From: Desulfovibrio sp.
GTDB taxonomy: Bacteria > Bacillota > Dethiobacteria > DTU022 > UBA8154
DNA: 39,461 nucleotides
Reading direction: 5' to 3'
Assembly (NCBI GenBank): GCA_020060185.1
Contig: JAGVAS010000001.1
Coordinates: forward strand, 1 to 39,461
The translations under genes were made by a program, and so were the position numbers. The number at the start of each line of letters is the position of its first letter. Within the stretch, counting starts at the first letter, position 1. Below the pieces are notes generated by a model. It was not told the origin of the DNA and did not search any database. It saw nothing but the letters and a program-made list of their open reading frames with translations. This document shows positions 24,362 to 39,461 of the stretch, in pieces.

Positions 24362-24630
24362 TAAAAAACCTTTCGCCCCAAAAACAAATTTAGAGACGAA
24401 AGGTCAAGCCTCCGCGGTACCACTCTATTTGACAGAAAAATATTTCTCCTGTCCGCTCTAAGTGTTCTTCTTTTAACGGTAAAGCCCCGTCCAGACTTAC
24501 TCTCACTTAAGGATTTCAGTCAGCTCCTCGCAGGGGAGTTTCAGAAAGGAGAAGAGGTTGCACTTACAGCAGGATGGCAACTCTCTGTACACTTCTTATC
24601 TTTCCTACTGATCCTGCTCATCGTATTTAG
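24362..24630 (-). ncRNA. T-box leader (leucine) upstream of leuA
   Basis: Minus strand: T-box AGAGTGGTACCGCGGAGGC (rc of about 24409-24427) followed by terminator ACCTTTCGTCTC...GGGGCGAAAGGTTTTTT; upstream Stem I region with candidate CTC specifier in TTTCTGAAACTCCCC. Confidence 0.9.
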
Positions 24631-25441: not shown

Positions 25442-25579
25442 TTTTTAACCTCCTCGTAATTTTAGTGCGCCTGTAAAATTTTAAACATTTGGCGTTTAAA
25501 AAGTAAATACTTTAAACAGCCGAAAAAAGAGCGTTTAATTTATTTTTTCATTGTACGGATTTTATATACACGGTAAATG

Positions 25580-25664
25580 AACAATGACGGGATCTAAACC
25601 CGGTTATTTTCATCCATTGTTTGTTATGACCGTTGTTGTGACCGTCAGGGTCATGGTGGTTATT
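25580..25664 (-). repeat. Solo 5' module of the structured repeat element (copy D)
   Basis: Minus strand: AATAACCACCATGACCCTGACGGTCAC...AACAATGGATGAAAATAACCGGGTTTAGATCCCGTCATTGTT, near-identical to 32245-32313. Confidence 0.85.
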
Positions 25665-30978: not shown

Positions 30979-32283
30979 ATGAAAAAACGGGTTTTATTTG
31001 TTTTTATCATACCGTTAATAATTTTTTTACTTTTTTATTTTACTTCCTGTAACGGGACAAAAGACACTACTTCAAACGTAGAAAATTCTTTATTTAGTAT
31101 TTGTGAAAATGACCCTAGTTTATTAGAAAAGGAATCCTTTTTTGATGATAGCGCTTTAGATTATACCGTTATTGAAGGTAAACACAATAAAAGTATTGTT
31201 TTGGCCGTAGTTGGTGACATTATGGTCCACAGTCCCCAGATTACCAGTGCTTATATCGAAAGTGAAGGAATGTATAACTTTAAGGAATGCTTTTCTCATA
31301 TAACTTCTTTTTTGCAAAAAGCGGATTTTGTTACAGGTAACTTGGAAACAACCTTTGCGGGGACAGAATATGGTTACAGCGGTTACCCGCTTTTTAATTC
31401 TCCTCCGGAGTTAGCCCATGCCTTGAAAGAAAGCGGTTTCAGCTTATTGTTCACAGCTAACAATCATTCCATGGACAGGGGAGAAAAAGGTGTTGTTAAT
31501 ACAATTAATCTTATTGAAGAGAAGTGTTTGAGTTTCGTAGGTACGGCCCGTAACCAGGAAGAGAGAGAAAGAGGTTACATTCTTTTCCAAAACGATATAA
31601 GGGTAGCATTTTTTGCCTACACCTATGGAACGAACGGCATCCTCTTACCTTCTAGGAAAGAATACTTAGTTTCCCTGATCGATGAACAATTAATCGCCAA
31701 AGACATAAACAGGGCAAAAAATGATCTGAAGGCCGATATAGTTGTAATTGGATTACACTGGGGCGAAGAGTACCAGCTTCTACCTTCAGGTTATCAAAAA
31801 GAACTTGCCAGAAAACTTGTAGACATGGGTGCAGATATTATTATCGGCAGCCATCCCCACGTTATTCAGCCTGCAGAGATTATTAAAACAGAAAAAGGTG
31901 AGGGTTTGGTTTTTTATTCTCTGGGTAATTTTATTTCCAACCAAAGGTGGCGTTACTCTGATTCAGGGGTTATTGTTTATATTAAAATCCAGTTAAATCC
32001 TGCCCTGCACACTTCGAATGTAACTATTTTAGAAATTGTACCTACCTGGGTCCATAAATATCTTCAGGGAGGAAAGTGGAAATATACAGTTCTGCCTGTT
32101 CGGGAAGTGTTAGAAACAGAAAATGCTAAGGAAATTTTTAAATTATCAAATCAAAATTGCCAGCGTCTTAAAGAAGTTCTGGAAGAAACTGACGAGATTT
32201 TCTGGCGTTTCTGGCCTAATGATCAATCTGTCCCTGTAGATCTTATTAACCGCCATGAGCCTGACGGTCACAACAATGGATGA
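30979..32283 (+). CDS. CapA/PgsA-family metallophosphatase, lipoprotein
   Basis: Lipobox LLFYFTSC; AVVGDIMVHSPQ, TANNHSMDRGEKG, GLHWGEEY, GADIIIGSHPHVIQP. Confidence 0.9.
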   Translation: MKKRVLFVFIIPLIIFLLFYFTSCNGTKDTTSNVENSLFSICENDPSLLEKESFFDDSALDYTVIEGKHNKSIVLAVVGDIMVHSPQITSAYIESEGMYNFKECFSHITSFLQKADFVTGNLETTFAGTEYGYSGYPLFNSPPELAHALKESGFSLLFTANNHSMDRGEKGVVNTINLIEEKCLSFVGTARNQEERERGYILFQNDIRVAFFAYTYGTNGILLPSRKEYLVSLIDEQLIAKDINRAKNDLKADIVVIGLHWGEEYQLLPSGYQKELARKLVDMGADIIIGSHPHVIQPAEIIKTEKGEGLVFYSLGNFISNQRWRYSDSGVIVYIKIQLNPALHTSNVTILEIVPTWVHKYLQGGKWKYTVLPVREVLETENAKEIFKLSNQNCQRLKEVLEETDEIFWRFWPNDQSVPVDLINRHEPDGHNNG

Positions 32284-32570
32284 AAATAACCGGGTTTAGC
32301 TCCCGCCATTGTTAACGGGGACATTCCCCGACGCTTTATCGGGGTGTGTCCCCATACCTCTGTGTGCCGGCGTTTTACTGTTGGCGGAGTGACTTGTGCA
32401 GCGAGGAAACAAGTTCACTACGAAACGAGAGCTGGAGACGACCCAGTTGACAGGATGTCAACTGATGGATGGGAATTCCGCCGGGAAGGTCGCCGGAAGC
32501 TCGAGGTGAGTAGTAGAACTTGCCGAACTGAACCCGGAACTACGCCACCAGCAAACGCTGCGATTTTAGA
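32245..32570 (+). ncRNA. Structured repeat RNA element copy A (candidate HEARO/omega-RNA-like)
   Basis: Hairpin AACAATGG...CCATTGTT enclosing CGGG...CCCG; GGGGACA..CCCCGA/TCGGGG..TGTCCCC (32317-32353); CAGTTGACA-GGA-TGTCAACTG (32444-32464); long-range GCGTTTTACTGTTGGCGGAGT (32370-32390) with ACTACGCCACCAGCAAACGC (32539-32558); homologous to 39082-39345. Confidence 0.7.
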
Positions 32571-33702
32571 GAGTTGATATTTGCATTACTTGTTCGGGAA
32601 GCTCTTTTTCACTGTAAATTTCATCTATAACAATATCTATCTTATCCATAAGATTTAACTCATATTGTTTTAAAGGTTCAAAATCTTTTTTTGTGCATAA
32701 GATACGAACGCTGGGTCTTAAAGGAAACCCTACCGTGTTATGCACTACTACCCCTATCTCCCCGTTGCTTAATCCCACAAAAGTACCGATAGGATAGGCT
32801 GCAATATGCTGAAAGAATTTTTGTAAGACGTTAAGATCAAATAATTCTATTCCGGATTGCAGCAGTTCCAGAGCCTTATGAGCTGGTAAAGCTTTTCGAT
32901 AAGGACGATCCGCTACCAGAGCGTCATAAACATCTACAACGGCACAAATTCTGGAAAAAAGATGAATTTGTTCCCCCTTTAAGCCTTCGGGATAACCCTC
33001 ACCGTTCATACGTTCATGATGCTGCAGAACTATTAGAGCAGATGTCGGATTAATAAGGGACTGCATTTTAACCATATCGTAACCTAAAAGAGCATGTTTT
33101 TTTATCTCTGTAAATTCTTCCGGAGTAAGTTTCCCATTTTTGTTTAAAATATTGGCTGGAATTTTTACTTTTCCCAAATCATGAAGCAAGGAACCCAAAC
33201 CTATTTCTTGTAATTTTGATCGTGGAAATTCCAAGGAAATAGCAGTTGTAATGGCCATTACAGCAACATTAACAGAATGAGCGAAAGTATAGTTGTCAGA
33301 AGTTCTTATATCTGACAAATTTACGATAAGATTTTTGTTATTTAAAAGTTGATCAATTATATCATCGAGAATATTTTTTACACCTTTGTGAGTAAAAAGC
33401 AGCTTGGGGATAGACTTCTCAGGTTGCTTCTCCAGGTCGGAGAGAATATTTCTGATTAGATTGTTGGCTTTTTGCCTGGTTTCATCCAGGATAACATCCT
33501 CGATATCAATATCAGGGATGATGTTGTCAATGATATAAACGGCAGGTATATTTAATTTTTTCAAGTTATGGATATATTCTTTTTTAAGTTCTTTACCGGC
33601 ATTGAGAAGTAAAAAACCGGAAGAATCATATACCGGCCTTCCAATTTTCATTCCCGGTTCCAGAGCCCATACTGACACTTTTCTCATCAACAATCTCCCC
33701 AT
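32566..33702 (-). CDS. HD-GYP domain protein (cyclic di-GMP phosphodiesterase family)
   Basis: HSVNVAVMA, GSLLHDLGK, HHERMNGEGYPEGLKG, DVYDALVADRPYRKA. Confidence 0.94.
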   Translation of the reverse strand: MGRLLMRKVSVWALEPGMKIGRPVYDSSGFLLLNAGKELKKEYIHNLKKLNIPAVYIIDNIIPDIDIEDVILDETRQKANNLIRNILSDLEKQPEKSIPKLLFTHKGVKNILDDIIDQLLNNKNLIVNLSDIRTSDNYTFAHSVNVAVMAITTAISLEFPRSKLQEIGLGSLLHDLGKVKIPANILNKNGKLTPEEFTEIKKHALLGYDMVKMQSLINPTSALIVLQHHERMNGEGYPEGLKGEQIHLFSRICAVVDVYDALVADRPYRKALPAHKALELLQSGIELFDLNVLQKFFQHIAAYPIGTFVGLSNGEIGVVVHNTVGFPLRPSVRILCTKKDFEPLKQYELNLMDKIDIVIDEIYSEKELPEQVMQISTL

Positions 33703-39081: not shown

Positions 39082-39345
39082 AACAATGGATGAAAATGCT
39101 CGTTTTAAAACTCGTGTTATGTCCCGCAAAGGTGGCGCAAGGTTGTGGCGAGCGACATGTGCAGCGCAGCGTACAGGTTCAGCGATGCGAAGGCTGAAGG
39201 CGGTCCTGCTGGCATGGAAGCCAGCAGCCGGGAGGTGAGTTAGGATGCGAACTCTCTCGGGAAGGCCAGCCGTAAGACTGAGCTGAAACGTAGAGCTTTC
39301 AGAGCGGAACTCGGAGCTCCGCCTCAGCAAAAGCTGCTCCATTTC
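39082..39345 (+). ncRNA. Structured repeat RNA element copy B (candidate HEARO/omega-RNA-like)
   Basis: Starts AACAATGGATGAAAAT; GCGACATGTGCAGCG; hairpin CTGCTGGC-ATGGAA-GCCAGCAG (39206-39227) at the position of the copy A CAGTTGACA hairpin; GGATGCGAACTCTCTCGGGAAGGCC versus GGATGGGAATTCCGCCGGGAAGGTC in A; 3' CTCCGCCTCAGCAAAAGC. Confidence 0.65.
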
Positions 39346-39350
39346 CATAT

Positions 39351-39461
39351 TAACCGCCACGACCCTACGGGTCACAAAGATGGATGAAAATGACCGGGTT
39401 TAGATCTCCTGATTGTTCGATAGACGAAGCGTTTTGCTGTTGGCGGAGCGACTTGTGCAGC
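39351..39461 (+). ncRNA. Structured repeat RNA element copy C, truncated by window end
   Basis: CCGCCACGACCCTACGGGTCACAAAGATGGATGAAAATGACCGGGTTTAGATCTCC...GCGTTTTGCTGTTGGCGGAGCGACTTGTGCAGC, matching copy A 32250-32401. Confidence 0.7.

Follow-up and report, generated by a model that had tools for sequence, protein, structure and literature searches.

The window locus

The window, the whole stretch of 39,461 nucleotides that was analyzed, corresponds to contig C103 of a 2.47-Mb, 200-contig draft genome (G000) with a completeness of 89%. In the convergent gap between a capA-like gene and an HD-domain gene, it contains a mobile element, copy A, on the plus strand at positions 32246 to 32570. The extent of copy A is based on the 5' boundary YTA|ACCGCC common to the copies, an empty site in the sister genome G067, and the BLAST matches of the repeat. 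According to the listing of boundaries, the trinucleotide Y-T-A flanks both ends of intact copies, and at the 5' boundary of copy A, it reads TTA (32246 to 32248, plus strand). The initial annotation described this block as noncoding, which does not hold for its entire length. The capA-like ORF (PGA_cap) extends ∼37 nt into the block with its stop codon at 32281 to 32283, and the stop codon of the HD-domain ORF is located at 32566 in the 3' tail. As both ORFs terminate within the block, the insertion provides both stop codons.

Intact elements are built from two hairpins, a short one (GACCC/GGGTC) and a second one representing the 5' module, together with the RNA core and a tail. The hairpins named in the initial annotation are all found in place, and all features of copy A described here are located on the plus strand. 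The 5' module hairpin (32272 to 32313) is formed by ACAATGG/CCATTGT with an inner CGGG/CCCG stem; in another subtype, the stem is compensated to ACAATA/TATTGT. The 5' module also contains ATGAAAAT (32280 to 32287). This segment is predicted to pair with the complementary ATTTTCAT in the 3' tail of intact copies, which in copy A has decayed to ATTTTAGA. In this module (32277 to 32300 of the window) and in other copies, a short frame recurs (ATG GAT GAA AAT ... GTT TAG), corresponding to MDEN(N/D)RV, possibly by chance.

The GGGGACA...TGTCCCC palindrome at 32316 to 32353, counted among the hairpins of the structured block in the initial annotation, is a separate REP-like insertion in copy A. Most copies show no such sequence between the modules, and similar palindromes occur elsewhere. 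The RNA core of ∼190 nt follows at 32370 to 32558 and is matched from 32364 to 32565 with 176.6 bits by R1, a covariance model built from 38 cores. Its P5 hairpin (32444 to 32464) carries a conserved GGA loop at 32453 to 32455. Of the neighboring P6 hairpin, the loop AUGGAU and the 3' arm remain (32465 to 32486), with the 5' arm deleted according to the alignment row. Due to this missing arm of a conserved hairpin, copy A is regarded as a degenerate copy. The predicted fold is more stable than that of shuffled sequences both for the core region (32360 to 32575; −80.0 kcal/mol; z = −3.8) and for the entire block (32240 to 32585; z = −4.4).

Copies and insertion sites

A BLAST search of the genome with the block yields 83 matches, of which 41, counted by hand, extend over the 5' half of the core, and covariance models add at least about 12 cores beyond the BLAST set, in agreement with the initial view of the block as a structured repeat. 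The element is thus dispersed over the 2.47-Mb draft genome in about 50 or more copies. The real copy number is probably higher since many copies are located at contig ends, where the assembly broke. Within the window, copy B (39129 to 39342, plus strand; 141.7 bits) contains a full core of another subtype. It is directly followed by copy D (39350 to 39461, plus strand), a truncated fourth element which starts with TTAACCGCC and runs to the contig end, with a match of 22 bits at 39423 to 39461. Copy C (25579 to 25662, minus strand), upstream of a Mn-catalase gene, consists of the 5' module only.

Intact copies start with YTA|ACCGCC and finish with ATTTTCATA|YTA. Besides the site of copy A, empty in G067, the site between nusG and rplK is occupied here and empty in the sister species G067 and G070, and a second orthologous site is empty in G068 and G069. 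At one site in G068, just the final 16 nt of the element remain (CGCTATTTTCATACTA). With its dispersed copies, fixed ends, and empty sites in relatives, the element resembles miniature inverted-repeat transposable elements (MITEs) and other nonautonomous DNA transposons. The window subfamily itself shows no clear terminal inverted repeats, and the duplicated site amounts at best to YTA at both ends.

Several insertions show particular arrangements. The copies in the nusG-rplK gap (L004 in G000:C142) and in the tuf-rpsJ gap (L013 in G000:C56), with the genes read from the flanks, are antisense to their operons. Another copy (L044 in G000:C68) apparently interrupts an acyl-CoA dehydrogenase gene near its start, as far as the reading of the flank indicates. 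In G070 and G057, one core is nested in the P5/P6 region of a second core, and this composite is present at several sites (L053, L071, L072, and L079). Head-to-head pairs of cores, a few hundred bases apart, occur in G053 (L298) and are frequent in G058 (L318, L319, L320, and L327).

Relationship to the TwoAYGGAY family

The initial annotation proposed the block as a candidate orphan HEARO/omega-RNA, the RNA partner of the IscB and IsrB nucleases; under this reading, it would be a guide RNA remaining after loss of its nuclease. The two have in common that they are mobile structured RNAs of similar size, and the intergenic position would fit as well. However, the HEARO model RF02033 gives no match at an E value of ≤10 at the locus or in the genome and none in 18 plus 18 related loci, and the fold differs. 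A search of the genome, 89% complete as assembled, revealed no RRXRR domain of IscB/IsrB, and this domain is not among the commonest families of 120 proteins flanking the copies either. The architecture instead matches a different Rfam family, which leaves the HEARO origin with a probability close to nil. An Rfam scan of the locus gives nothing convincing, and the matches to isrK, snoRNAs, and PtaRNA1 lie far under the cutoff.

The family in question, TwoAYGGAY (RF01731), was described in 2010 and is represented in Rfam; we know of no function for it. Rfam places it in clan CL00106, shared with CsrB, and labels it "Cis-reg." Of 98 genomes of the class, 32 contain the RNA according to R1, and some of these belong to other families and orders. 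A relative from the class (L193) reaches 47.0 bits with RF01731 (E value of 7e−7) and passes the Rfam cutoff of 43 bits. In the reverse search, 18 of the 30 RF01731 loci taken from the wider phylum are matched by R1 with E values of 5.6e−19 to 0.0018, compared to a best E value of 0.26 for the negative control sequence. Another copy from the genome of the window (G000:C105) reaches 125 bits against R1 and 40.0 bits against RF01731, below 43 bits. No window copy has an RF01731 match reaching this curation threshold, and the window family is therefore filed as a diverged relative and not as a plain member. Judged by homology in both search directions, the window-type RNA is a diverged subfamily of TwoAYGGAY.

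The window-type RNA shares with TwoAYGGAY the long closing stems, a three-way junction, two hairpins with (A)YGGA(Y) loops, and a tandem G-A in one stem; copy A retains the sequence of the second loop without its 5' arm. The tandem G-A and the GGA loops are reported for the TwoAYGGAY family in PMC4333381. In contrast to typical members, window-type copies score under the cutoff, and the P5 loop is often one base shorter (ACA-GGA-UGU). Further differences are the amplification to dozens of copies, the nested copies, the extra 5' module, and the 3' ATTTTCAT tail.

Selection on the core structure

From a copy B with the same architecture built from different stems, the initial annotation, which also described a long-range helix, had concluded that the RNA structure is under selection. 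For an evaluation of this structure, 38 diverged cores were aligned from sequence alone and compared with a hand-drawn structure of 66 pairs. In this alignment, 87.5% of the cells are paired and 45 of the 66 pairs show double changes, with a covariation score of 0.329. Shuffled controls give 77.6% paired cells, 30.7 double-change pairs, and a score of 0.169, and none of 500 shuffles reaches the observed values. Sliding the 3' partners by 1 to 3 columns reduces the paired cells to 25 to 46% (maximum of 45.6%), with at most 23 double-change pairs and scores of ≤0.097. A conservative tree-based covariation test of our own, similar to R-scape, passes only two pairs with an E value of <0.05, both in P5, so that individual pairs are mostly not significant alone, and the slid and shuffled controls are relied upon for this reason. 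Taken over the alignment as a whole, the core structure is conserved through compensatory changes, and both the long-range helix and the shared architecture of copy B are upheld. Mobility and selection on an RNA (or single-strand) structure are thus retained from the initial interpretation, without the HEARO/omega-RNA identity.

GGA is present in the two hairpin loops in 36 and 37 of the 38 cores, and the tandem G-A in 31 of them. These conserved GGA loops suggest a putative protein partner. Cells with G-U number 117 versus 95 with A-C overall and 36 versus 11 in P4. As G-U lies slightly above A-C overall, this comparison favors the stated strand only weakly, and the choice between RNA and single-stranded DNA is likewise only weakly decided.

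TwoAYGGAY RNAs on other small elements

Matches to RF01731 are found in 51 of 399 genomes of the phylum, often several per genome, and the copies within one genome are up to 95 to 100% identical with sharp edges. Terminal inverted repeats together with a target duplication are clear in three genomes, G053, G214, and G348. In G214 and G348, which belong to different families, the RNA lies within an element of ∼280 bp with the inverted ends CAGACTGWAGACAAA. These ends occur in 42 and 34 exact copies, respectively, compared to 0 for a reversed-pattern control. The elements (L337 to L366) are inserted in stem-loops, many of them terminator-like, and the whole stem-loop is duplicated on both sides. 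Stem-loop targeting with such a duplication has been discussed for IS1272/IS1182 (PMC5678879). The likeness to MITEs and IS1182-type elements extends to the short length, the inverted ends, and the duplicated target stem-loop; the differences are that no transposase with CAGACTGWAGACAAA ends was identified and that the window subfamily has no such ends. L337 and L365, located at different sites, both lack the core and share a single deletion junction; in one element of this set, the core is inverted.

The carrier in G053 has different inverted repeats, CACTACAGCGAAAAAT. Elements of about 110 to 300 bp with these repeats (L372, L377, L383, and L392) are flanked by short duplicated sequences (for example, TTAG or ATAA), and among those measured, only the one of 301 bp carries the RNA. 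An R1 match is contained in 5 of 30 end-matched loci, representing four distinct elements, and most of the loci are without detectable RNA. A 4-kb span between two such ends was considered as an autonomous parent and rejected, as it apparently consists of two small elements flanking other ORFs. The ends change from genome to genome but the core persists, and the same ends are also found on elements without a core; the core is therefore cargo, carried between at least three types of ends. TwoAYGGAY RNAs are multicopy cargo of small nonautonomous elements with at least three unrelated types of ends. This is new here; the open-access literature naming TwoAYGGAY, in the passages considered, contains no description of mobility.

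The same observations bear on the question of whether the fold acts solely at the level of DNA, as single-stranded hairpins or ends for transposition, with no function as an RNA. The nearly symmetric G-U and A-C cells, the nested and tandem copies, and the preference of IS1182-type elements for stem-loops (PMC5678879) are consistent with such a role. It is nevertheless unlikely, given that the core is retained though the ends vary among genomes, that elements lacking the core spread with the same ends (the L337/L365 junction and the low share of RNA-bearing loci in G053), and that P4 shows an excess of G-U.

Flanking genes and transcription

No recurrent neighbor is found beside the RNA, since at most 3 to 4 of the 120 flanking proteins belong to one family, and a partner gene adjacent to the RNA was rejected on this basis. 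In gaps between codirectional genes, 21 copies are in sense and 29 in antisense orientation (P = 0.32), with ORFs taken from simple longest-ORF calls. Some positions between operon genes, such as nusG-rplK and tuf-rpsJ, as well as the "Cis-reg" label in Rfam, would be expected of a cis-regulatory leader or antiterminator acting on adjacent genes. The lack of a fixed neighbor and of an orientation bias makes such a role highly improbable, and the discoverers of TwoAYGGAY likewise considered it probably not cis-regulatory (PMC2864571). No sigma-70-like promoter is seen at the element, and read-through transcription is therefore the likely source of the RNA.

Mobilization and origin

A transposase with matching ends could not be identified. 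A Y1 transposase was rejected as the mover, being present in 19 of 23 genomes of the family irrespective of the element and only as a partial gene in G000. A phage or plasmid origin was likewise rejected, as no similar DNA occurs in the viral or plasmid collection. The sole pattern match in a viral contig, along with matches in Bacteroidetes, Treponema, Desulfotomaculum, and others, proved on reading to be due to chance. Copying by a reverse transcriptase, as for a group II intron or a SINE-like RNA, would account for dispersed copies of a structured RNA and for the missing inverted repeats of the window subfamily. Such a retroelement is very improbable, however, as no RVT_1 gene was found in G000, G054, G057, G067, and G069, all of which carry the element, and Rfam gives no group II intron match at the locus or the related loci. 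As the genomes are drafts, these absences are provisional.

Copy A is best explained as a decayed nonautonomous mobile element that carries, as its main component, a structured RNA from a diverged subfamily of TwoAYGGAY; to this reading, in its full form, we assign a probability of roughly three in four. Its family assignment and mobility are very probable, while the part concerning a protein-binding, trans-acting RNA is tentative. In the proposed mechanism, a transposase supplied in trans would move the element DNA, with insertion into YTA/TA-type sites in this genome, and other genomes would employ different transposases acting on the other ends. The RNA would be produced via read-through from adjacent genes and, once folded, would expose both GGA loops for recognition by an RNA-binding protein, with an effect in trans and not on the neighbors.

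CsrA and candidate protein partners

A role as a sponge for CsrA, in which the GGA loops titrate the protein at a dose set by the copy number, was proposed for TwoAYGGAY in PMC4333381. The nearly invariant GGA loops and the Rfam clan common to CsrB argue for this role, and the CsrB/RsmB sponges (RF00018) also carry GGA in hairpin loops. Unlike these sponges with their many repeated loops, the window-type RNA is one folded domain with two loops, and it occurs in genomes without a detected csrA. CsrA (PF02599) is present in 17 of 32 RNA-positive compared to 23 of 66 RNA-negative genomes (Fisher's exact test, P = 0.12). It was not found in the other 15 RNA-positive genomes, G000 and 14 others, and these absences include G024, G046, and G048 with completenesses of 95 to 96%. 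As CsrA was not detected in about half of the RNA-positive genomes, a CsrA sponge is unlikely as the general function, and under the mobile-element explanation, the protein partner would hardly be CsrA everywhere.

A broader possibility, put forward tentatively, is that TwoAYGGAY does not belong to the ordinary RNAs of the host but represents a structured-RNA cargo module, which small transposons from several unrelated families would have acquired in independent events across the phylum. The module may have been kept because a trans-acting RNA, with its GGA loops bound by some RNA-binding protein, aids the spread of the element or its tolerance by the host. Since TwoAYGGAY travels on small elements with three or more types of ends, in dozens of copies and also in hosts without detectable CsrA, the question it poses shifts from which gene is regulated to what is gained by a mobile RNA module. 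The CsrA-sponge proposal becomes directly testable by a comparison of hosts with and without csrA.

Other RNA features of the window

Apart from the element, the window contains a T-box leader on the minus strand (24389 to 24630; 116.8 bits), located 5' of a 2-isopropylmalate synthase-like gene with LeuA domains.
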